A stretch of DNA of 64,000 nucleotides from an uncultured bacterium (GTDB lineage Bacteria; Bacillota_I; Bacilli_A; RFN20; CAG-826): positions 62,001-126,000 of the forward strand of contig CASDXP010000001.1 in the NCBI GenBank assembly GCA_949285455.1, given 5' to 3'. A program made the position numbers and the translations under genes. Below, piece after piece: positions 47,401 through 60,210 of the stretch; the stretch's first letter is position 1; each line of letters starts with the position of its first letter. The notes under the pieces are model-generated. The model saw only the letters and a program-made list of their open reading frames with translations. It was not told where the DNA came from and made no database searches.

Positions 47401-49821
47401 ATGAAGAACAAACGTTTACTTTTTATTCCCTTGACGACTACTTTACTAGTGAGTAGCTTTTCTTTTTCTTTTTTCGTTTCACCGACCAAAGCTTCATCAG
47501 CGGCGCAAAGCATTGACGCATCCGATTTAGGTGAAGAAGAAATAAGAACATATTATGAAGGTATCGATAATCTAAGCGGAGACATTTTACTTACTTCACT
47601 TAGCGATATAATTGATGATCACACATCTATTTCATACGACAGTACGTTCGATTGGATGGCTATCACTGATCGAGATTGGATTCAATCTCCACTTAGCGAA
47701 GAAGAATTAGCGAATTATGATTTCTCTAACTTAACAAATGATAATCCTATCATGCATCTTATGTATCGAAATGATAATTATCTTCCTAGCGCTTTAAGAT
47801 ATTACGCTAGCGGAAGTGAAGATCAAAAAAGTTTCGATAGAGAACACGTCTGGGCTCAAACAAGAGGTGGCTTCGATACAAGCAATGGTATGGGCACAGA
47901 TATGCATCATCTTTTCGCTAGCGATAAAATGAATAACCAAAACGGACATGGTAATAGTGATTTTGGTAATGTAGATGAAGTAAGTAGTCAAATCGGAAAT
48001 ACCGATTATAACAATACAGGTAAAACCGGATCACAAAACGGCTCAAGCGTCACGGTCTATGAACCGCACGATGATGTTAAAGGTGATATTGCACGTGCTT
48101 TGTTTTATATGGCTGTAAGATATGATGAGACATTATCTTTAACTAGTGAAATTCAAAATAGTAGCGTCAAAGGCACCATTGGTAACTTAGACGTTTTATT
48201 AGAATGGAATAAAACTGATCCAGTCGACGTTTTTGAAATTCATCGTAACAACTTGATTTACAATAACATTCAGCACAATAGAAATCCTTTCATCGACTTC
48301 CCTAGTTGGGCGGACGCTATATGGGGAAATGAGACCGCTAACGTAAGTGAAGATACGCCTTCTCTTATCGATAACGTCATCGATTTAAGACCTTCGAGGA
48401 ATGGCAGATTAGTGATCGAACACCTACCAAATAAAATAACTTACACCCGTGGCGAAGCCTTAGATGTAACAGGCTTAGTCGTTAGTTACGAGCATGATGG
48501 AACGCGTGAAACTATCACTGATTACGTCTTAAGTATCGAAGATGAATCTATTCTATCTAACCCCGGGAATTATCGTGTTTTCGTCTCTTCTAAACTAGAA
48601 GGTGTCATCTATACGTATTTTGATATTAACGTTACAAATACCCAAGAAGAAACACCTACACAAACAGTCATCTACTCAACTGGCTTTGAAGAAAGCGAAG
48701 GATTTAGCACTGGAACAAATTATCAAGGTAACGTCAAAAGCGGCCCAGAAGGTCAACAATGGAATATTGATGGGAATTTTTCTTCATCAAGTGGTAATAT
48801 CGACGGCGTTTCCGCTAGACTTAGATATTATAAAAATTCAACTAAGTTAAACGAATTAAAAATGGAATTCGACGTATCAAACGTTTCCTCAATTAAATTT
48901 GATACGAAGATGAACGCTAATTTGACTTTAGATGCATTCTATAGTCTAGATAGTGGCGTCACTTACAATTATTTAAAACAAGCTGATGGAAGCGATTTTA
49001 AAAATGTGAAGACGACAAGCGTTCGAACTTACGAACTAGATGTAGCGAATGGAAGTACTAGTGAAACAGTTCGCTTTAAATTCGCTTTAGGCGATGCTTC
49101 ACAAAAACCAAGCAGTGGTAATGCTGAACTAGTAATTGATAATATTAGTATCTATGGAGAAAACTACGCTAGTCCATTTGATGATTTCCTTACAATCAAA
49201 GATTTACCACGTACTTTAACTTACGAAGTAGGCGATACATTTACGAGTGAAAATTTACTTGTCAATCGCTTAAGTTATAGCGCTCCTACTTCTAATTTCT
49301 ACGATTATACTTTATCGATTCAAGATGGTGCACTTTTAACTACATCAGGACAAATTAGAGTAGAAATTAATCCTCTTGATTCTAACATTAAATCCGCTTA
49401 TTTCTACATCACCGTCACCGGTGAAATTAGTGCTGCACAAGCTTTCGCTAATAAACTTAGCGAGTATAAGACATGTCTTGATTACATCGAAGCCTACGAA
49501 AATTTGATCGATGAATATAACGCTTTAAGCGATGCTGATAAAGAAGCATTAAAAGATATCATCATCTACGATTATGATTATCAAGAATATCTTAATAATA
49601 ACAAAAGTTATGATGGCTTAAATCCTACTAGTCAAATTGACGCTCATTCGAAATGGATGCAAATTGTTGCTATGTATGATCGCACTAATCGCGCCACGTG
49701 GATTTCAACTTTATTTAGCAATCCACAGACTTATTTAACTTTACTTTACATCGCTCTTGCTTTAGGAGCAATTACAATTACTATTTACTTTGTAAATAAG
49801 AAACGTAAACAAGTTCGTTAA
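47401..49821 (+). CDS. Surface-anchored endonuclease I family nuclease
   Basis: 806 residues: signal peptide (about 1-31, ending VSPTKASSA), an endonuclease I domain (~80-310), two Ig-like regions (~340-420 and ~590-670) separated by a jelly-roll-like domain (~430-585), a helical stretch (~675-770), and a C-terminal transmembrane helix with basic tail (LTLLYIALALGAITITIYFV, then KKRKQVR). The nuclease motif is intact: FDREHVWAQTRGG with His149, then TDMHHLFASDKMNNQNG with His169-His170. It should cut DNA or RNA outside the cell for nucleotide scavenging. It is transcribed alone, divergent from glpK, and abuts pepP exactly. Confidence 0.9.
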   Translation: MKNKRLLFIPLTTTLLVSSFSFSFFVSPTKASSAAQSIDASDLGEEEIRTYYEGIDNLSGDILLTSLSDIIDDHTSISYDSTFDWMAITDRDWIQSPLSEEELANYDFSNLTNDNPIMHLMYRNDNYLPSALRYYASGSEDQKSFDREHVWAQTRGGFDTSNGMGTDMHHLFASDKMNNQNGHGNSDFGNVDEVSSQIGNTDYNNTGKTGSQNGSSVTVYEPHDDVKGDIARALFYMAVRYDETLSLTSEIQNSSVKGTIGNLDVLLEWNKTDPVDVFEIHRNNLIYNNIQHNRNPFIDFPSWADAIWGNETANVSEDTPSLIDNVIDLRPSRNGRLVIEHLPNKITYTRGEALDVTGLVVSYEHDGTRETITDYVLSIEDESILSNPGNYRVFVSSKLEGVIYTYFDINVTNTQEETPTQTVIYSTGFEESEGFSTGTNYQGNVKSGPEGQQWNIDGNFSSSSGNIDGVSARLRYYKNSTKLNELKMEFDVSNVSSIKFDTKMNANLTLDAFYSLDSGVTYNYLKQADGSDFKNVKTTSVRTYELDVANGSTSETVRFKFALGDASQKPSSGNAELVIDNISIYGENYASPFDDFLTIKDLPRTLTYEVGDTFTSENLLVNRLSYSAPTSNFYDYTLSIQDGALLTTSGQIRVEINPLDSNIKSAYFYITVTGEISAAQAFANKLSEYKTCLDYIEAYENLIDEYNALSDADKEALKDIIIYDYDYQEYLNNNKSYDGLNPTSQIDAHSKWMQIVAMYDRTNRATWISTLFSNPQTYLTLLYIALALGAITITIYFVNKKRKQVR

Positions 49822-51099
49822 TTAACGATTACGATGATAAAGAGCAATCTCTAAATCGTTTAGTTCCTTTTTGATGTCGCTACTTAGGTTAATAGCCCCA
49901 TCTTTCGTCACTAAAATATCATCTTCGATACGAATACCGATACCAAGTTCTTCAATATATAAGCCTGGCTCAACAGTGATGACGTTTCCTGCTTCTAATG
50001 GAAGTTCCCTATCCGATTCATCATGCGTATCTAAGCCTAGGTGATGAGAAACATTATGATAATAATATTTATAAACATCTTTATCTTCTTTAATAAGACC
50101 AATTTCTTTTAATTCCTTCGCGTAGAAACTTACAGTCTCTGTTTGTAAATCATGGATTGTAAGCCCTGGCTTTATATATTCGATAATATGTTTATTACAT
50201 CTTAAAACGATGTCATAGATTTCTTTTTGTGTGGCGTTAAATTTACCATTTATCGGATAAGTTCTTGAAATATCTGCGTGGTAACCATCAAGTTCCGCTC
50301 CAAGATCGAAAAGCATCAAATCACCATCGCGCAGTTTATCATTTGGTGTCGGATAATGAAGTGTCGTGGCATTTTTTCCTGCCGCGGCAATCGTCGCAAA
50401 AGATAGATTCGCATTCGCATAATCTTTGATCACATATTGAAATAAAGACGCTAGTTGATATTCAAATAAACCAGGTTCGATCATGTTGATGAGAGCGTTA
50501 ATGCCTACATTCGTTATACGAATGGCTTCTTTAATCGCTTTAACTTCATCTTCTGATTTGACCATCCTTAGACGGATGATCATCTTCGATAAATCGATCA
50601 TTTCAAGATGTTTATCTTTACCGTATTGATGAATGATATCTTCTTTAAAATTTTCTTGATAATAATTATCTTTAATTTTTACTTCTGGCGTCGTATCTAA
50701 ATAAACGTGTTCAATTAAACCATATTGAGATTCTTTGCCGAGTATGAGAGATAATTTTTCATTAAAATGATCAAAATATAAGATATTATCGATTCCACTT
50801 AGCTTTCTAGCTTCATCATCGCTTAATCTTCTTCCTACCCACTTAGCCTTAGTTTCATTAGGCTCTTTGATAAAAAGGATGACTTTTTCATCCGTGCTCG
50901 TTTTAATGAACATCAAGCACGATTCTTCTTGGCTGATGTTTGTTAAATAGAAAAAATTGCGGTTAGGTGTAAAAGGATAACTTGCATCATTTCCGCACTC
51001 AAGTTTTGCCATACCCGAAAACACTAAGGCGATGGAATCAAATTTCATCGCCGCTAAGATTTTATTTCGTCTCGCTATTAATTCATTTACTTTAATCAT
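49822..51099 (-). CDS. pepP: Xaa-Pro aminopeptidase (M24B)
   Basis: Removes N-terminal residues before proline. 425 residues: an N-terminal creatinase-like domain (FTPNRNFFYLTN) and a C-terminal pita-bread domain with all metal ligands: DLGAELDGYHADISRTYP (two Asp), SHHLGLDTHD (His), VITVEPGLYIE (Glu) and GIRIEDDILV (Glu). GGAGG precedes the ATG. It follows yigZ by 47 bases. Its stop codon abuts that of the convergent nuclease gene. Confidence 0.95.
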   Translation of the reverse strand: MIKVNELIARRNKILAAMKFDSIALVFSGMAKLECGNDASYPFTPNRNFFYLTNISQEESCLMFIKTSTDEKVILFIKEPNETKAKWVGRRLSDDEARKLSGIDNILYFDHFNEKLSLILGKESQYGLIEHVYLDTTPEVKIKDNYYQENFKEDIIHQYGKDKHLEMIDLSKMIIRLRMVKSEDEVKAIKEAIRITNVGINALINMIEPGLFEYQLASLFQYVIKDYANANLSFATIAAAGKNATTLHYPTPNDKLRDGDLMLFDLGAELDGYHADISRTYPINGKFNATQKEIYDIVLRCNKHIIEYIKPGLTIHDLQTETVSFYAKELKEIGLIKEDKDVYKYYYHNVSHHLGLDTHDESDRELPLEAGNVITVEPGLYIEELGIGIRIEDDILVTKDGAINLSSDIKKELNDLEIALYHRNR

Positions 51100-51146: not shown

Positions 51147-51737
51147 TTATATGACGATATATTGTTCTTTTTCTAAATTTATTTTCATAAATGATGTTTC
51201 TAATTCATCGATTTCTTTTAAAGTTAAAAAAGAAATTTCAGCACATTCTTCTAAATGTTTTTCTTCTTTGATTTGAATGACTTTTTTAGCTTTTAATTTT
51301 GCTAAATTTTCATAACTTATTAAGCCTTTATAAACATAAGCTTTTTCTTGTCTACCAAAAGATACTTTATCAATCACTAACTTCACCGTATTTAAATACG
51401 TTCTTAATAGTCTAGAAGCACCTAGTAAAGTTCCACCAAAATAACGAACGACGATGATGAGATAACAATTTAAATTTAACTTTTCGCACATCTCTAAAAC
51501 TGGTTTAGCGAAAGTATTATGAGGCTCACCATCCCCACTTGCGTAACTGACATCAAATATTTTATAAGCGTAGCAATAATGTCTTGCATTAGGGTATTTA
51601 ATTTTTATTTCTTCTAATGCTCTTAAGACATCATCTTTCGTTTCAATTGGCTGCAAAACACCAATAAAACGCGATTTTAGCACTTCTAAACATACTTCAA
51701 AATTTTTTGTAGGAACTTTATAGATTTTACTTATCAT
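51147..51737 (-). CDS. yigZ: YigZ/IMPACT family protein
   Basis: 196-residue member of UPF0029/IMPACT. Signature: NARHYCYAYKI, SGDGEPHNTFAKPVL and VRYFGGTLLGASRLLRTY. The family is linked to translation and protein turnover, but its bacterial role is unclear. The ATG overlaps the stop of the giant membrane protein (ATGA), so translation is coupled. Confidence 0.93.
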   Translation of the reverse strand: MISKIYKVPTKNFEVCLEVLKSRFIGVLQPIETKDDVLRALEEIKIKYPNARHYCYAYKIFDVSYASGDGEPHNTFAKPVLEMCEKLNLNCYLIIVVRYFGGTLLGASRLLRTYLNTVKLVIDKVSFGRQEKAYVYKGLISYENLAKLKAKKVIQIKEEKHLEECAEISFLTLKEIDELETSFMKINLEKEQYIVI

Positions 51738-54700
51738 AAAGAATTAATGTGCGAGACTAAATTCGTATAAAAATTATCGACTCCAAATGGATCGAAGAAG
51801 TTTTCTAAAATATTCGATGTCGGATAAGAATTAGCTAATGGTGTAACAAAGTAGGCAAGGTAGAAATAATCAGAATAAAGACTATGACCCATCTTTGCTA
51901 AATTAATGAGGAAAGTTTCATTATAAATGATTGTTTGATTTGTTAAATCAATATTTTCATACATATCAAATAACATACGAATTTCTTCACAAGTTTCAGG
52001 CACTACTAATGTTAGATAATCATCGTACGTTAATGTCTTATATTGTTCATAAGAAGTAGATTCATAATTACCTACTTTCTTAATATCTTCATCGATGATG
52101 TTTTCAAAATATGAGAAGAAATGACGCACGCTAAGATCTAAAGAGACGTAAGCTCTATTGCCTTCATCATCAAACGTCGCATCGAAGATACTTTCTAAAT
52201 TTAATTTATCGAAGCCTAAAATATTTTTAGAAACTTGAATAGCTAATAATTCAGACATATTAGAATAAACATTTAAGAAGAATTTATTGACGCCTCTACC
52301 TTCGCTTCTTCCACTAAAATTAGGCATTGATGAATAAGTGTAGAATTGATGAGCAACATTAGAAACATCGTTATTAAATAACGTAGAACATAACCCGCTT
52401 TCATCGAACATGCGCGCAAAGCCGACGGAGGCGGCATCGTAAGTTACATTCGCATCTTGATAAATTTCATCGAGAAGATTGGAATTGTAGAAAACTTCTA
52501 AAATAGTGTCGAAATGTTTTGAAGTATCAATTAATTCTTCTAAGGTTGAAATGCGTAAATCATCATAAATGGCGGAAGCATCTTCAACATTTATTAAAAC
52601 ATCAAATAAATTCTTTAAATTCGCTAATTCAGCATCACGATATAAAACTTGTGAGATACGGAAATTAGCCATATTTTCATCATTCAATGGATTATCAAAT
52701 AAATCTAATAAAGTATGACCATTAGAGACATTAATACTAATTTCTCCTAATTGATTTTCAATCAATTGAGGAATGACGTTATTCAAAGTATCCACTTCGT
52801 TTAATCTTCCTAAAATAGTGAAAACTTTATCATTCGGATTTTCACCTAATTGAGGTAATAAATTACTTAAAGAATTTAAATTATCGAAGCTCAGATTAGC
52901 GGCGCTAAGATAAGTTCCTACTACATCTAAGAAAGCTTTTAAATCATCTAATTCATCTAACCAATTACCTTCATTTAAACCAGCCGCACTACCTTCAAAA
53001 TTTCTTAGACGATATGCCATATATGTAGAAGCATCATTTGCGACTCCACTATCGTATCTAGCATCGTAATTTAAATGCACTAAGCCGAGATTATCATAGA
53101 CGTTAATCATCGTTTGAATGAAGACTGTATCGCTATTAGAAGAAACGCTACCCGCTTGATGGAAGATTGAACTTTCATAGATGGCTTTTAAGCCAGTGAT
53201 GATATGTTCATTGTTAGCGAGTGAATAAGTCGATAGTTTCGTTAAGTCTAAATCGATAATAACTTTTAATTCATCTAGCATCGTCTTCATGAAATCAAAT
53301 TCACTTTCAGGATATTTAACTTCGTAATTATTACTAGACTTATAATGATAGAAAACATTCGCGCTACTTAAGTCGATACTAAAACCGTTTTGAGCATCAT
53401 CGAATGGATTAGCTAAGACGAATTGATGAATTAAATTAGGTGCACCATCATAGATGACGTTAGAATTGTTCAGGGCGAGCACTAAATCGTAGACAAGCTT
53501 AGTATCGACATTTAAATAATCGATACGATCGATCGACATCGATTCACCATCAGCGATATTAAGTGATTTTAAAATCTTTAAAACATCAAATATTTTGATA
53601 AGTTCTTGTTCTTGATAATTATAATTTGAAGTATCGCTTAACCCATATTTGAAATGTTCATCGATTAAATAATCGGCTTTAGCTAAACCATCCATGTAAA
53701 GGTTAACGTTATGGATATCTTTAGGGGAAGATTCATCATAGATAATAGTTTGCATATCTTCAAGTTCAAGAATGCTCGTCGTAAGCGCTTGGAAGAAGGA
53801 ATCTTCACTACCGCTATTAGGGTTAGGACCGCTACGATGGAAAATATTCGAAGCATTAAGATTTAACATCGTCTCTTCAAATAAATCTAAATCTAAACTG
53901 CTAAGACTCGTATATTTACCTTCATTGATGTAATAAAGGTTTTCAATAATGGCTACTAAATTTTCAATTTCCCCATCTAAATACGGATTATCGCCATTAT
54001 AATAAACGTTTACGCAATCGAAAGATACATCAGGTAAGAAAGATAAACCAGATGTCGTAAGAGTCGCACTACTCATAGCGTTTTCAAGCTCTGAAGGTAA
54101 AATTCTAAAGAACAATCGAGAATCATTTAAAGAGTTTAAGAAATTTGTTAAAGGTAAGACATCGATTTGACCATTTTGATCTAAAGTCGCCCAAAGCCTA
54201 TTTAACGTATCGATTGAAATTTCACCATTGCTATCAGCGACAGGAACAGCGTGAGAAATGACGTTCATCGTCAGCCTAATCTCACCATCTTCACCTAACC
54301 AGCCATCGTGATCAACGCTAACGTCCGCGTGTTTATTTCCGACGCTGATGATAAGTTGTTCGAAACTTTGATTGGGGCCAGCCATCTGTTGTTCATAACC
54401 AATTTTTCTTACAAAATAAGTGATGATCGATTCAAAAGCCGTAAGATTTTCTTCGAGACGTACTTCGCTATCCTTAAATGTATTGAACACTTCAGAATCA
54501 TAGATTCTATTCAATAGTTGTTCGAACGTATCTTTATTTTCATCGATATCAAAAATGTTAAAATCTGGCACGTTACCATCTAAAGATATACCTACTTCTT
54601 TAAAATCGCTAAGGACGTCGACGATCAAATCTAGTTCTTGTTTTCTTCCTTGTTTATCTAATTCTAATAAAACTTCGCTATTAGCGTTCGTCAAATCAAA

Positions 54701-57700
54701 ATCTTCGACGGAAACATGACTGATAAGTTCATCGATGGCATTATAAATAGGTACTCTTAAAATATCGACTTCATTGAATGAATGAATAGCGTTTCTAAGC
54801 AAAGTTTCATCCATTTCATCGCTAAATAAATTTTCAAAAATATTACCGCTTGCATTAGGTAAAGAATCGATAGCGAGATTGATATCGACAAGCATCTTAT
54901 AAATACCATAATTTAAATCGTAACCAGTCTCTAATTCACGGCTCGATAAATCTTTCCACGCTTCTTTATAATTCGCATCTTCGAAATCTTTTTCTATTTC
55001 GCTATAACTCACACCATCAGGATCTGCAAAATAATCGCGATTCGTACCGAGCGAATCCATCGATTGATGTAGTTTATCGTAGATGAAATTAGAGAAGAGG
55101 AATTCTTGGCTTTCTTTTTCTATAAAGAGGCTTGAATCCACTAAATTATCGAGTAATTCTAACACTAATTCGGGTTCAACTTTGAAAATATCAATTTCGT
55201 TAATATTTTGTTCAAATTTACCGATGGTCGTACAAATCCTAGCGAAGACTTCACCTTCTTCCGTCCAATTGATGACGTTTACAAAAGAAATGCCGCTATC
55301 AGGATCGATGATGCCAGAATTGACAAGGTAATAATCGAACGTATCAGCGATGCTAGATTTCGTCACTTCTGATAAATCGATCGCGGCAAAAATATCAGAG
55401 ATACGATAGACTGTTTCAAGTTGTCCAATCGTCTCATTACTTAAAGTTTCACCTTGTAAGGCATCATAGATACCAGTCCCACCGAAGACGCTAAAGAAAT
55501 TGACGATGTAGCCAATTTCACCATCGTAGATTATTTTACCATCACGATTTAAAATGTAATCGCCGTTAAGATGTTTGCTATTTTCCCATTTGGTGACGTT
55601 AAAACGAGAAACGTCGAAGTCAAATTGCGGAACACTATTTTCGTACACTAATTCTAAAACATTGTAGAAATTGTCCGTGCGCATATTTCCAAAGGCATCT
55701 TTCGGATTGAGAATGTTAGAAATGTAAAAAATCTCTAATAAAGATAAAAGTTCTTCTTCATTTTCAGGAATGGAACGTAAAGCCATAGAAATGCTCACTT
55801 CATCTTTTTCCATGAAATTGTTCGAGACGTAAACGACTCCTTCGATGCTAGAGAAAATAAGCGCTAATTCTTCACCGATATGTTCCACTTCCCAATCAAA
55901 ATTTGCTGGACTTAAACCAATCTTAGCTAATGCATTCGTCACATCGGGCGAATCCATAAATCCTTGGATGATATCAGGAACGACAGAACTTAATATTTTT
56001 GAATTATCGATAGTAGGTAAAACATTTTCCATCCCATCGATGAAAGTTTCATCGACGTCGACGATCATTCCTTCTTCATCAAAAATTATCGCTTCACTAT
56101 TCATCGGATCCATGATGTAATCGACGATAGAATCGTATTCATTCATGAGCGATAAAGTATTTAAAAGCGCACCGAACTCCTTTTTGAAGTTATAAAATGC
56201 TCTTTCATCGTTCATCGTATCGATAATATTTTCTAGTTCAACAGTGTCAATATCAATCGTATCGTTCGAAGATAAAGAAGTGACAAGTAAATCTACTAAA
56301 TCATCGATAGCGTATCTAATTAAATCTGAATCGAATAATGCATAATCAGCGTTTTCTAACCTATTACCGTCTTTATCAGTCATGATCGTACGTCCAGCTT
56401 CATCGACTCCAATTGGATTACCATTCGCATCTAATGGTCCGACGAAAATGTAACTTAACGCTTTTGCGTTAACGAACACTAAATCGATAATTTGTTGGCC
56501 TGTCTCATCGATAGCGGCACCATTTCTTACATCTTCTACAAGTTCGCTTACGCTCACTTCTTCTTGATTTTCATTCGGTAGGAACATATCGAGTAAATTT
56601 GGTTCGACTTGATTTAGTTCATAAAGCGAATCGTAGATGATAGCTAAATTTCTTCCCCAATCGATATTTTTATAATCTTCTAGCTCGCTAGGTAGATAAG
56701 TAGCGATATCTTCACCGATTGTTCCGCTAGTGGTTACGCTATAAAGGACGATAGGAATGAGACGAGATAATAATTCGCTATTAGAAATGGATTCGAATAT
56801 ACGCATGTAGTAAGGATAATTTTCTTGCGTCAGCATCGATTGATATAACTCATCGATGTCGATTTGACTAACATCTTTCCAGCCGATAGCCTTACCGTTT
56901 TCATCATATAATACAAAATTATGTAACAAGCCAGAATTGAAGACGTCAGAAACGATAATTTGTAAAGTGTCAATTTCTTCTTGCACATCGAAATTAAAAT
57001 CTTCAATTAAAGAAGTGTCGATGTAATCTTTCATCGCTTCTTGATTTAAACCAATCGCTAAAGCGATAGGAAGAGCGTAAACGATCAAATCTGAACCTGA
57101 TAAAGTTTCTAATAATTGGATGAAGAAATCCGCATTATTTATTAAAGCTGGATCGAATGAAAAACCATCTTCCGTCACTAAGCCATTAGAGATGATCGAG
57201 CCGCCGCCATGACCAATTTGAGCGATGATATCATAGATGCTATCACCTGTCCCTGTATCGGTGAAGAAATCCATGAGCCACGTATCGAAAGCCCATACAC
57301 CATCTTTAGATGTCCAATTAAAAAATACGTTCGCAAATATAGAATTGTTATACGTTGAAATAAAACTATTCATGTACTGAGCGATTTCCGAATCGCTTTC
57401 ACCAGTATTTGTTTGCTGGTAAGCTCTAGAAAAAGTTCCGATGATACTCACAGTAGGAAGCGCACACATCAAGGTGATGACGAGGTATCTTGCGGTATGA
57501 ATTAAACCACCGAGCCATTTTTTTCTTTTCGTTTTGACGACTCTTTTTGAAAAGAAACGTTTGAATACTAAATTCCAAAGAAGAATAGTGAGGAAGCCAC
57601 CGACAGAAATGATGAGTATAGAAGAAATGATAATGGAGAGCAAAGCTAATAGGGAAGCAGCAATGCTCAAAGCATATTCGCTCGCTGCTTGCCCACTTGC

Positions 57701-58054
57701 GACATCGTAGACATTGAAGAAAGCTTCGATATAACTAGAAAGTGTGCCAAATATCGAAGTGATAGTAACATCTAACGAGGCTCCAGTTGAACTATTGGTA
57801 ACAGTGATGACATCTTGGATACCAAAAGCACCTAAAATTGCTTTCGCATCAAATCCACCAATCCAACGTCCGAACATAGGCGCACAAAATAAAGCGATGA
57901 TCGCTAAACCACCCATGAAACAAAATCTAAATAAAGAATTTAATAATCCTCTTTTCCAACCGATGAGAAAGGAAATGAAAAGTCCAAGAAAAAATAAAAC
58001 GAAAAGGACGATGAGAGTAATATTGACGATAAGCCCAAATGTTTCAGGTGTCAT
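51734..58054 (-). CDS. Giant (2106-residue) membrane protein with CvpA-like N-terminus and long repetitive domain
   Basis: A single uninterrupted frame taking a tenth of the window. Residues 1-210 hold about four transmembrane helices; the first part (FLIGWKRGLLNSLF) resembles CvpA-type proteins. The other ~1880 residues are acidic, rich in Asn, Asp, Leu and Ser, and built of degenerate modules around a motif like LLxxLxxSxIF: examples are LLETLSGSDLI, LLDNLVDSSLF, TMLNLNASNIF, GLKAIYESSIF and ILEVFYNSNLL. No enzyme motif or cell-wall anchor was found. The start follows an extended -10 box by six bases without a ribosome site. It may be a surface or envelope-spanning scaffold; function unknown. 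Confidence 0.88.
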   Translation of the reverse strand: MTPETFGLIVNITLIVLFVLFFLGLFISFLIGWKRGLLNSLFRFCFMGGLAIIALFCAPMFGRWIGGFDAKAILGAFGIQDVITVTNSSTGASLDVTITSIFGTLSSYIEAFFNVYDVASGQAASEYALSIAASLLALLSIIISSILIISVGGFLTILLWNLVFKRFFSKRVVKTKRKKWLGGLIHTARYLVITLMCALPTVSIIGTFSRAYQQTNTGESDSEIAQYMNSFISTYNNSIFANVFFNWTSKDGVWAFDTWLMDFFTDTGTGDSIYDIIAQIGHGGGSIISNGLVTEDGFSFDPALINNADFFIQLLETLSGSDLIVYALPIALAIGLNQEAMKDYIDTSLIEDFNFDVQEEIDTLQIIVSDVFNSGLLHNFVLYDENGKAIGWKDVSQIDIDELYQSMLTQENYPYYMRIFESISNSELLSRLIPIVLYSVTTSGTIGEDIATYLPSELEDYKNIDWGRNLAIIYDSLYELNQVEPNLLDMFLPNENQEEVSVSELVEDVRNGAAIDETGQQIIDLVFVNAKALSYIFVGPLDANGNPIGVDEAGRTIMTDKDGNRLENADYALFDSDLIRYAIDDLVDLLVTSLSSNDTIDIDTVELENIIDTMNDERAFYNFKKEFGALLNTLSLMNEYDSIVDYIMDPMNSEAIIFDEEGMIVDVDETFIDGMENVLPTIDNSKILSSVVPDIIQGFMDSPDVTNALAKIGLSPANFDWEVEHIGEELALIFSSIEGVVYVSNNFMEKDEVSISMALRSIPENEEELLSLLEIFYISNILNPKDAFGNMRTDNFYNVLELVYENSVPQFDFDVSRFNVTKWENSKHLNGDYILNRDGKIIYDGEIGYIVNFFSVFGGTGIYDALQGETLSNETIGQLETVYRISDIFAAIDLSEVTKSSIADTFDYYLVNSGIIDPDSGISFVNVINWTEEGEVFARICTTIGKFEQNINEIDIFKVEPELVLELLDNLVDSSLFIEKESQEFLFSNFIYDKLHQSMDSLGTNRDYFADPDGVSYSEIEKDFEDANYKEAWKDLSSRELETGYDLNYGIYKMLVDINLAIDSLPNASGNIFENLFSDEMDETLLRNAIHSFNEVDILRVPIYNAIDELISHVSVEDFDLTNANSEVLLELDKQGRKQELDLIVDVLSDFKEVGISLDGNVPDFNIFDIDENKDTFEQLLNRIYDSEVFNTFKDSEVRLEENLTAFESIITYFVRKIGYEQQMAGPNQSFEQLIISVGNKHADVSVDHDGWLGEDGEIRLTMNVISHAVPVADSNGEISIDTLNRLWATLDQNGQIDVLPLTNFLNSLNDSRLFFRILPSELENAMSSATLTTSGLSFLPDVSFDCVNVYYNGDNPYLDGEIENLVAIIENLYYINEGKYTSLSSLDLDLFEETMLNLNASNIFHRSGPNPNSGSEDSFFQALTTSILELEDMQTIIYDESSPKDIHNVNLYMDGLAKADYLIDEHFKYGLSDTSNYNYQEQELIKIFDVLKILKSLNIADGESMSIDRIDYLNVDTKLVYDLVLALNNSNVIYDGAPNLIHQFVLANPFDDAQNGFSIDLSSANVFYHYKSSNNYEVKYPESEFDFMKTMLDELKVIIDLDLTKLSTYSLANNEHIITGLKAIYESSIFHQAGSVSSNSDTVFIQTMINVYDNLGLVHLNYDARYDSGVANDASTYMAYRLRNFEGSAAGLNEGNWLDELDDLKAFLDVVGTYLSAANLSFDNLNSLSNLLPQLGENPNDKVFTILGRLNEVDTLNNVIPQLIENQLGEISINVSNGHTLLDLFDNPLNDENMANFRISQVLYRDAELANLKNLFDVLINVEDASAIYDDLRISTLEELIDTSKHFDTILEVFYNSNLLDEIYQDANVTYDAASVGFARMFDESGLCSTLFNNDVSNVAHQFYTYSSMPNFSGRSEGRGVNKFFLNVYSNMSELLAIQVSKNILGFDKLNLESIFDATFDDEGNRAYVSLDLSVRHFFSYFENIIDEDIKKVGNYESTSYEQYKTLTYDDYLTLVVPETCEEIRMLFDMYENIDLTNQTIIYNETFLINLAKMGHSLYSDYFYLAYFVTPLANSYPTSNILENFFDPFGVDNFYTNLVSHINSL
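52440..57120 (-). repeat. Degenerate protein repeats within the giant membrane protein
   Basis: At least ten copies of the pattern L-x2-L-x2-S-x-[IVL]-[FLI] occur near residues 319, 425, 778, 975, 1185, 1308, 1402, 1528, 1627 and 1858, each commonly followed by a Pro, Gly or charged loop. Spacings are irregular (about 90-210 residues, or multiples), and the DNA itself is not repetitive, which points to old diverged duplications. Confidence 0.6.
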
Positions 58055-58060
58055 GTCAAT

Positions 58061-58069
58061 AATCTAGCA
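58061..58069 (-). promoter_or_regulatory. Extended -10 element of the giant protein gene, leaderless type
   Basis: TGC-TAGATT on the minus strand, six bases before the ATG; TTAAAT at the 17-base position. No ribosome binding site. Confidence 0.6.
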
Positions 58070-58138
58070 TATTTAAATTAACAATTTAAGAAAAAAATGT
58101 ATAAATTTTAAAAATGGTAATTAAAAAATATTATTTTG

Positions 58139-58147
58139 TGCTATTAT
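58139..58147 (+). promoter_or_regulatory. Extended -10 element of the CPBP gene, leaderless type
   Basis: TGC-TATTAT on the plus strand (within TTGTGCTATTAT), six bases before the ATG at 58154. There is no ribosome site and no clear -35 box. Confidence 0.6.
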
Positions 58148-58153
58148 TTCTCT

Positions 58154-58948
58154 ATGTTTATTAAAAGAACTTGTCCAGAATGTCAAAAATTATATGATGA
58201 TCATCGTCATCGTTGTCCTAAATGTCACCTTATCAACGAATACGTTCGTGATGATAAGAAAATTAATATGATGTTTTGGCCTAACCCAATCATGCAAGTA
58301 ATTTATTTTATTGCCGGCATGCTACTTTTGTTCATATTGCCTATCATCATGCAAGCATGCTATAAAGATTTAATATCTTCTAACCCTATCCTTTATAGCG
58401 CTCTTACAAATTTTGCTACTTATTGTAGCATCTTCGTTTTATTCATCTTGCTTTTAATTCCTGATTATCCAGCTTTCGGTAAGCAATTCATCCATGGCTA
58501 TAAGCCTTACATTATCTTCGCTATCGGCCTATGTTTACTTATCGCCTTTTCTTATTTTTGGTCTTGGATTTCTTCCATTATCTTACCTGGAACAATCAAT
58601 GATAATCAAAGTGCCGTCAACGCTGTCACTTTAGATTACCCCCTACTCGCGTTATTCACGACGGTCTTTTTTGCCCCGTTCGTCGAAGAACTCATCTACC
58701 GCGTCGGATTATTTGGTTTTTTACACCGTATAAATCGTTATCTAGCATATGCTATCACGATCGTTTTCTTCGCCTTAATTCATATCAATTTTGCTTCTTC
58801 TAATCTGGCAAGCGAAGCTCTAGCCATTCCAACTTACCTCGTTGCCGCCTTCATTTTAACAGCTAGTTATGAAAAAGGTGGATTCGCTTCTTCTTATCTA
58901 ATTCATGTCGCGAACAATTTAATCGCTTTCATCCTCATATTAGTCTAA
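58154..58948 (+). CDS. CPBP (CAAX protease-like) membrane protein with N-terminal zinc ribbon
   Basis: 264 residues from the ATG of MFIKRTCPECQ; an upstream in-frame ATG at 58136 lies before the promoter. Two CxxC pairs (TCPECQ, RCPKCH) form a zinc ribbon, followed by about six helices. The CPBP motifs are present: APFVEELIYRVGLFGFL (EExxxR), FALIHINFA and LIHVANNLIAF. Such proteins act as intramembrane proteases or scaffolds, for example in bacteriocin immunity or peptide maturation. The target is unknown. It is followed by TraX after four bases. Confidence 0.9.
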   Translation: MFIKRTCPECQKLYDDHRHRCPKCHLINEYVRDDKKINMMFWPNPIMQVIYFIAGMLLLFILPIIMQACYKDLISSNPILYSALTNFATYCSIFVLFILLLIPDYPAFGKQFIHGYKPYIIFAIGLCLLIAFSYFWSWISSIILPGTINDNQSAVNAVTLDYPLLALFTTVFFAPFVEELIYRVGLFGFLHRINRYLAYAITIVFFALIHINFASSNLASEALAIPTYLVAAFILTASYEKGGFASSYLIHVANNLIAFILILV

Positions 58949-58952
58949 ATTT

Positions 58953-59879
58953 ATGGAACAAGTTAACGAAGTTAAAAAAACGCATCATTTCAATATCTTA
59001 TCAAACTTTTCTTTAAAACTTTTAGCGATGCTTTTTATGACTATAGATCACATAGGTCTACTTCTTTCGGATAACGCAGATTACTTCGGCTTTACGATTA
59101 ATTCACCTGCCCTAATCATGTGCGATGTCTTCCGTATCTTAGGAAGATTTGCGTTCCCGCTTTTCGCTTTCCTTCTCGTAGAAGGCATTCGACACACCCA
59201 TTCGATTAAAAAATATTTTTTAAGATTAGGTATCATGGCTACTTTGATTAGCGTAGCCTACATCATCATGATTTATGGTTTAAAAATGAATATGTCTGGA
59301 GGAAACATTTTCTTCGATTTATTGCTCGCTGGTGTAGCGATTTATCTTTTAGAAAAGAAAAAATGGATCTCTTTACTTGCTTTACTTCCTTTCGCTTACA
59401 CTTTATTTTGCACTTGCGTCAATTCTTTAGAAGAAGTTCATGTCATCAATTGGTCAAATTATTTTCCTTATTTTTTAAGACTACAATACGATGTCTTTGG
59501 CTTCGCCTTAATTTTATCTTTCTACTTCGTCTATAAATTAATTCCTTACATGTTTAAAACTGAAACGTTTAAGAATCTAGATTTCGATGCTTATAAGACG
59601 ACGAACGAATATCGTTTGTTCGCAAATGGGATGATCATCGCTTCTTTACTCGTCATCAATCTCATCTGGTATTTTTTAAGTTATTACATCGTTGGCTTAC
59701 AATATCTTATGGGGCTTGGAGTAGAAAGTTGGTCCATCTTTGCCGGAATCTTTATATTATTATATAACGGTAGACGAGGCTACAACGCGAAATGGTTCTA
59801 TTATGGAGCGTACGCATATTATCCGATGCATCTTCTTATCATCGGAGGAATCATTTATGCTATCATTATGTTCGCATAG
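58953..59879 (+). CDS. TraX-family membrane protein
   Basis: 308 residues with about eight helices. The TraX-like pattern is FSLKLLAMLFMTIDHIGLLL at the N-terminus and RILGRFAFPLFAFLLVEG, HTHSIKKYFLRLG further on; HAMHL-type end seen as YYPMHLLIIGG. TraX acetylates F pilin in Escherichia coli, but chromosomal Firmicutes homologues probably acylate another surface molecule. It begins four bases after the CPBP stop without a ribosome site, so re-initiation is likely. Confidence 0.87.
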   Translation: MEQVNEVKKTHHFNILSNFSLKLLAMLFMTIDHIGLLLSDNADYFGFTINSPALIMCDVFRILGRFAFPLFAFLLVEGIRHTHSIKKYFLRLGIMATLISVAYIIMIYGLKMNMSGGNIFFDLLLAGVAIYLLEKKKWISLLALLPFAYTLFCTCVNSLEEVHVINWSNYFPYFLRLQYDVFGFALILSFYFVYKLIPYMFKTETFKNLDFDAYKTTNEYRLFANGMIIASLLVINLIWYFLSYYIVGLQYLMGLGVESWSIFAGIFILLYNGRRGYNAKWFYYGAYAYYPMHLLIIGGIIYAIIMFA

Positions 59880-59898
59880 ATAAAGGAGAATGAAACAT

Positions 59899-60210
59899 AT
59901 GTTAAAACATGTAGAAAACGTGCAAGAATTTGATCAATTGATCGCTAATGACCTTACGGTCGTCGACTTTTATGCGGATTGGTGTGGCCCATGTAAGATG
60001 CTCGCCCCCATTTATGAAGATGTCGCGAAAGAATTTCAAGAGATAAACTTCTTAAAAGTAAACGTCGATCATCTTTTTGAAATCGCTAGTCGCTATCGCA
60101 TCGCAAGTATCCCTACCATCCTCATCTTTAAAGAAGGTAAAATTGTCTCTTCGCACGTCGGATATTTAGAAAAATCTCAACTCGTCGGTCTAATTAAAGC
60201 AAATATTTAA
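59899..60210 (+). CDS. trxA: Thioredoxin
   Basis: Cytosolic thiol-disulfide reductant. About 103 residues with FYADWCGPCKMLAPIYEDVA (WCGPC active site) and IASIPTILIFKEGK (cis-Pro). I start at the second ATG (MLKHVENV) because AAAGGAG lies ten bases upstream; the earlier ATG at 59890 is only one base from that site. Third gene after CPBP and TraX. Confidence 0.95.
   Translation: MLKHVENVQEFDQLIANDLTVVDFYADWCGPCKMLAPIYEDVAKEFQEINFLKVNVDHLFEIASRYRIASIPTILIFKEGKIVSSHVGYLEKSQLVGLIKANI

Follow-up and report, generated by a model that had tools for sequence, protein, structure and literature searches.

In the window, the 64,000-nucleotide stretch of DNA analysed here, a single open frame that begins with ATG and runs without interruption over positions 51734-58054 of the reverse strand encodes a giant protein of 2,106 amino acids, with exactly the start and length that an earlier note on this DNA had claimed for a single 6.3 kb frame. 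The gene is present in one copy in its own 1.1 Mb genome (97% complete, 21 contigs). It is followed by yigZ (UPF0029, IMPACT family; 51147-51737, reverse strand; PF01205, E = 5e-26), the next gene of a putative operon, and the stop of the one overlaps the start of the other by 4 bases in the sequence (ATGA, 51734-51737, reverse strand; junction TTATGATAAG), which bears out the coupling to the yigZ start codon that had been proposed. The two genes overlap or lie a few bases apart in most loci of the positional orthologues, which are found across the window's own family and a sister family.

In these two families, the order of genes around the giant gene is maintained: CPBP, TraX-like and thioredoxin genes stand to one side, and to the other come yigZ, in many cases a gene for an Mrp-type ATPase, and then the M24 peptidase gene and glpK. 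The conserved neighbours in the window are an M24 peptidase of the Xaa-Pro aminopeptidase type (49822-51099, reverse strand; PF00557, E = 2e-55, and PF05195), a divergently transcribed CPBP (Rce1-like) membrane protease with a zinc-ribbon-like motif at its N-terminus (58136-58948, forward strand; PF02517, E = 2e-12) and a TraX-like membrane protein (58953-59879, forward strand; PF05857, E = 2e-30). The protease, the TraX-like protein and the thioredoxin form a trio on the forward strand (58136-60210) that is kept in most of the family. Also conserved beside the locus in congeners is an Endonuclease_1 protein of 806 residues (47401-49821, forward strand) that looks secreted, having a signal at its N-terminus and a hydrophobic helix at its C-terminus. 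Directly upstream of the giant gene lies a conserved stretch, TATGCTAGATTATTGAC (58055-58071, reverse strand), that is identical in two congeners and partly so in a third. A -10-like TATGCT box, conserved in congeners, is located 11 bases 5' of the ATG, and no obvious Shine-Dalgarno sequence was seen upstream of that ATG; the transcript may be leaderless.

The orthologues in three congeners are 2,103, 2,104 and 2,529 amino acids long. Relative to the nearest congener, the protein is 84.5% identical and its gene evolves with an omega of 0.115 (dS 0.89, dN 0.10; 2,103 codons), inside the range of the neighbouring genes (0.02-0.24). Purifying selection extends along the whole gene and is tightest at residues 208-1000 (omega 0.07, compared with 0.15 distally). 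A chance open frame, a decayed gene or an assembly artefact has a practically negligible probability, as nothing was found to favour any of them, the gene is intact at 2,103-2,104 amino acids in two more congeners with an omega of about 0.11, and its homologues are present throughout the class. Given this conservation in congeners, the purifying selection and the class-wide homologues, the gene is real and under selection, as had been supposed when a real function was suggested for it.

The N-terminal membrane domain

The first 207 residues (57434-58054, reverse strand) form a CvpA-like membrane domain with four helices predicted from hydropathy, at residues 14-32 (57959-58015), 44-62 (57869-57925), 131-149 (57608-57664) and 188-206 (57437-57493), all on the reverse strand. 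The CvpA-like look that the earlier note had seen in these helices is substantiated by profile-profile comparison with hhalign: 15 homologous N-termini matched nine CvpA-family proteins of related genomes at 97.8% (E = 8.1e-13), and a repeat with 39 N-termini gave 97.6% (E = 3.4e-12), the alignments spanning 184-191 columns. Unrelated membrane proteins used as controls, the TraX-like and CPBP proteins, reached at most 2.1% against the N-terminal profile, and reversed profiles 11-26%. The window protein itself has no match to Colicin_V (PF02674) in Pfam, and the N-termini of three other members score 24.3 (E = 3.3e-5), 21.5 and 19.7 bits, below the curated cut-off of 29.3 bits. Because the profile-profile match is significant while the Pfam scores stay under the cut-off, the N-terminus is, by these comparisons, a remote relative of CvpA without formal membership of PF02674. 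It shares with CvpA the number of membrane helices (four), a glycine conserved behind helix 1 and a basic loop between helices 3 and 4; however, the CvpA relatives compared are approximately 160-340 amino acids long, and the giant protein adds about 1,900 residues. At 2,106 amino acids it is far from the small stand-alone size, about 160-250 amino acids, expected of CvpA, the colicin V production protein. Frames of about 250-305 amino acids that match the N-terminal profile occur in six genomes (G008, G017, G103, G180, G207 and G260), possibly as stand-alone versions of the anchor.

The distribution of charge suggests how this domain is oriented. Averaged over 39 homologues, the loops between helices 1 and 2 and between helices 3 and 4 hold 2.4 and 7.8 lysines plus arginines, versus 0.03 and 1.2 aspartates plus glutamates, while the loop between helices 2 and 3 holds 1.9 of the former versus 6.4 of the latter. 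In the same homologues the body is 6% basic and 17% acidic by these residues. By the positive-inside rule, we infer that both termini lie outside the cytoplasmic membrane and, consequently, that the acidic body is extracytoplasmic.

A body of diverged repeats, predicted to be helical

The body, residues 208-2106 (51737-57433, reverse strand), is predicted from its charge, self-comparison and AlphaFold2 models to be an extracytoplasmic, acidic, alpha-helical repeat region; it has a pI of 4.05, a net charge of -227 and four cysteines. The earlier note had described about 1,880 residues of diverged modules carrying L-x2-L-x2-S-x-[IVL]-[FLI]. The modules held up, but the literal motif is sparse: the body contains it 3 times, against an expectation of 0.09 in shuffled sequence, and BLASTP self-comparison of the protein revealed no internal repeats. 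Profile self-comparison of residues 210-2106 with 23 homologues, in contrast, aligned 1,289 off-diagonal columns (P = 2.4e-60, a value that distant homologues with differing numbers of units can inflate), and column-shuffled alignments gave nothing (P about 1). In view of this possible inflation, the figure that matters is that from three close orthologues alone, for which P is 2.2e-7 at an offset of 227.

An iterated unit profile applied to the window protein located seven repeat cores on the reverse strand: residues 418-525 (56480-56803; i-E < 1e-3), 672-807 (55634-56041), 885-998 (55061-55402), 1079-1216 (54407-54820), 1297-1430 (53765-54166), 1516-1655 (53090-53509) and 1739-1865 (52460-52840). 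From residue 672 onwards the starts are spaced by 194-223 residues. The consensus is a super-unit of about 220 residues composed of two half-units of about 110 residues each, the first marked by L..LN.S.LL...lP and AN.yY and the second by L..L..S.IFh and T.FE. The protein of congener G003 is longer by 423 amino acids, close to two super-units, and the extra length lies in the distal repeated half. The body thus consists of real but very diverged repeats with a period near 220 residues.

The protein could be placed in no known family, in agreement with the earlier claim to that effect. Searches of Pfam, NCBIfam, PHROGs, PADLOC and PDB sequences, with the single sequence and with profiles, returned no match, the remote likeness to CvpA being confined to the N-terminus, and no catalytic family was matched in the libraries searched. 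A phage or defence protein was rejected as an identity, with 0 families matched in either PHROGs or PADLOC. Nor did a calcium-binding role find support, since [DN]-x-[DN]-G turns number 160 versus 101 in shuffled sequence but EF-hand loops only 4 versus 2.5. The C-terminus (...YTNLVSHINSL) has neither an LPXTG sorting signal nor a terminal hydrophobic helix; an adhesin anchored by sortase through LPXTG was rejected, as the anchor is N-terminal.

Two segments were modelled with AlphaFold2: residues 1-800 (pLDDT 74.3, pTM 0.62; alignment of 14 sequences) and residues 1030-1780 (pLDDT 81.6, pTM 0.73; alignment of seven sequences). Helix and strand make up 63% and 5% of the proximal body and 59% and 0% of the distal model, and the predicted fold class is a helical repeat. 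Neither model has a convincing structural relative in Foldseek (against the PDB) or VIA-align: the best Foldseek E values are 0.05 for residues 1-800 and 0.3 for residues 1030-1780, and the VIA-align Z scores of both (at most 4.5) fall under the usual level of helical models without a clear match. The top Foldseek rows are intracellular alpha-solenoids. HEAT-type solenoids such as exportins and cohesin SA2, which head the structural lists, resemble the models in being all-helical repeats, but their scores are insignificant (E of at least 0.05; Z of at most 4.5), and the protein is assigned to no solenoid family. We claim none of the listed folds, exportin, talin and complex I among them, the rows being weak and all-helical, and a fold that is missing from these lists is not thereby counted out.

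Distribution and the cell wall

N-terminal profile matches are present in 162 of 395 sampled genomes of class Bacilli, and all 82 matching genomes in a sample of the phylum fall within this class. Named records with matches, obtained with a narrower profile (13 loci), are metagenome bins labelled Bacilli, Bacillales, Erysipelotrichaceae, Erysipelotrichia or Firmicutes. By these matches, the giant protein is a member of an unnamed, class-wide family and not an orphan. Complete genes in the window's family and its sister family encode 732-2,671 amino acids, open frames across the class reach 6,056 amino acids, and some contigs have giant genes in tandem, two or more together. Two such giants are neighbours on one contig of genome G152 (loci L129 and L130): a frame of some 6,050 amino acids and another, CvpA-like one with a length of 1,067 amino acids or more.

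Among 44 sampled genomes of the window's own family, 22 carry a frame of at least 700 amino acids, 5 show nothing beyond a match that is short or marginal, and 17 have no match. Six genomes (G007, G009, G014, G020, G094 and G294) maintain the locus order with the CPBP gene directly adjoining yigZ, and G020, which does not carry the giant gene, belongs to the same genus as G287, in which the protein has 2,400 amino acids. This pattern is most simply explained if an accessory gene was lost cleanly several times. The absence from an intact locus in six family members indicates that the protein is dispensable and that it is no universal part of the envelope. The argument that a compact genome would keep such a gene only for good cause is accordingly half right: the gene is retained here, but several relatives whose genomes are of comparable size have lost it cleanly. 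Presence and absence at a fixed locus provide natural deletions for comparison.

The bacterium itself is apparently a peptidoglycan-deficient member of class Bacilli; searches of its 97% complete genome and of congeners revealed neither a penicillin-binding transpeptidase nor a Mur ligase. Families deficient in peptidoglycan, and lacking sortases, have been predicted in order RFN20 of this class (PMC10868615). The window's genome probably belongs to that order. We considered whether the giant protein substitutes for the wall. In the class sample, penicillin-binding proteins are present in 35 of 119 genomes with strong matches versus 140 of 276 others (Fisher P = 1e-4, a value that ignores kinship). 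Yet six walled relatives of the same order (G008, G031, G187, G314, G335 and G377) carry proteins of similar size (1,370-2,179 amino acids), and some wall-less relatives do not have the gene. We therefore do not adopt this hypothesis: the giant protein is neither a strict substitute for the wall nor dependent on its loss.

Candidate roles at the cell surface

We suggest that the protein is an extended surface stalk, spacer or scaffold anchored by its CvpA-type domain, a reading to which we assign a probability of about 0.5. Four CvpA-related helices would be embedded in the cytoplasmic membrane, both ends facing the exterior, and the acidic body of about 1,900 residues would project from the cell as a series of alpha-helical units, with a half-unit of about 110 residues arranged in pairs of about 220 and a fold that is predicted. 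Comparison of relatives shows that the arrays vary by whole units. In a cell apparently without peptidoglycan, a long stalk, spacer or scaffold of this kind would be secured by the membrane alone, and its most likely role would be in organising or shielding the cell surface or in presenting partners, rather than in catalysis. The extended overall shape is tentative, as the models were based on 14 and seven sequences. An analogue in walled Bacilli is provided by Giant1-3 of Apilactobacillus kunkeei, surface proteins of several thousand residues built largely of alpha-helical repeats (PMC12863079); these differ in that a beta-solenoid forms their N-terminal part and beta domains their C-terminal part, and a CvpA-like anchor is not described there.

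Scaffold and adhesin had both been put forward in the earlier note; we retain both, and regard the adhesin as on balance unlikely. The repeats would then be the spacer of an adhesin or attachment leg whose distal end binds a host, a particle or a neighbouring cell. An analogue is Gli349 of Mycoplasma mobile, a protein of 3,183 amino acids with an N-terminal transmembrane segment and 18 repeats of about 100 residues (PMC7052211), which by its published description resembles the giant protein in its wall-less host, N-terminal membrane anchor, repeat length and great size (PMC7052211). Faster evolution of the distal half (omega 0.15 versus 0.07) would also fit a binding end, as would clean absence in relatives, which is common for accessory surface proteins. 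However, Gli349 is anchored differently, has a foot domain at its C-terminus and belongs to a gliding operon, the gli operon; the neighbours of the giant gene are yigZ, M24 peptidase, CPBP and TraX-like genes; a distinct C-terminal binding domain was not recognised in the giant protein, which has no family match; and overall the selection on it is strongly purifying and not diversifying.

It is also conceivable, but less probable still, that the membrane part does the work, as in a CvpA-type protein of envelope stress or export, with the ectodomain serving as a regulator, a receptor or a platform for docking. The remote homology of the N-terminus favours such a role, given that CvpA is required for deoxycholate resistance in enteric bacteria, EHEC and Vibrio (PMC6705877). 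MarP (Rv3671c) has a comparable layout, with four N-terminal helices joined to a large extracytoplasmic C-terminal domain, in that case a periplasmic serine protease (PMC4992679). In the giant protein, no trypsin-like protease domain follows the helices in searches of Pfam, NCBIfam and PDB sequences; the ectodomain is instead a helical repeat array, about nine times the size of the membrane part and without any enzyme match, and its clean absence in relatives implies that the function is dispensable.

A cytoplasmic body acting as an intracellular alpha-solenoid scaffold would accord with the identity of the best, though insignificant, Foldseek rows, which are intracellular eukaryotic solenoids. 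We consider this very unlikely, as the positive-inside signal is strong, consistent over 39 homologues and places the C-terminus outside. Bridge-like lipid-transfer proteins form beta-rich grooves. A lipid-handling bridge of the VPS13/AsmA-like type, as once suggested for this gene, has great length and a single membrane anchor in its favour and nothing else, and it is highly improbable, because both models (residues 1-800 and 1030-1780) are all-alpha, with 59-63% helix and 0-5% strand in the modelled body, and no Pfam match points to such a protein.

Returning to the surface stalk or scaffold, we speculate, tentatively, that CvpA-type helices were recruited in wall-reduced and wall-less Bacilli to anchor giant alpha-helical arrays, which would amount to a cell-surface architecture not described before: a coat or filament layer at the surface, secured by the membrane. 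Such arrays, sometimes encoded by tandem genes and reaching about 6,000 residues, could arise, disappear and grow by whole units. Searches of the open-access literature turned up no account of giant proteins with a CvpA anchor, and none of CvpA, MarP, Gli349 and the Apilactobacillus giants is known to unite an anchor of the CvpA type with repeats arrayed in this way.

CvpA-like membrane domains are widespread and poorly understood, and here, in a genome of very small size, a giant protein is rooted in one. For the diverged helical repeat of the body that it carries, no structural relative has been recognised to date, and the family is worth a name. With members in both walled and wall-less Bacilli, this family lends itself to the question of what takes the place of wall-anchored surface proteins after the loss of peptidoglycan.
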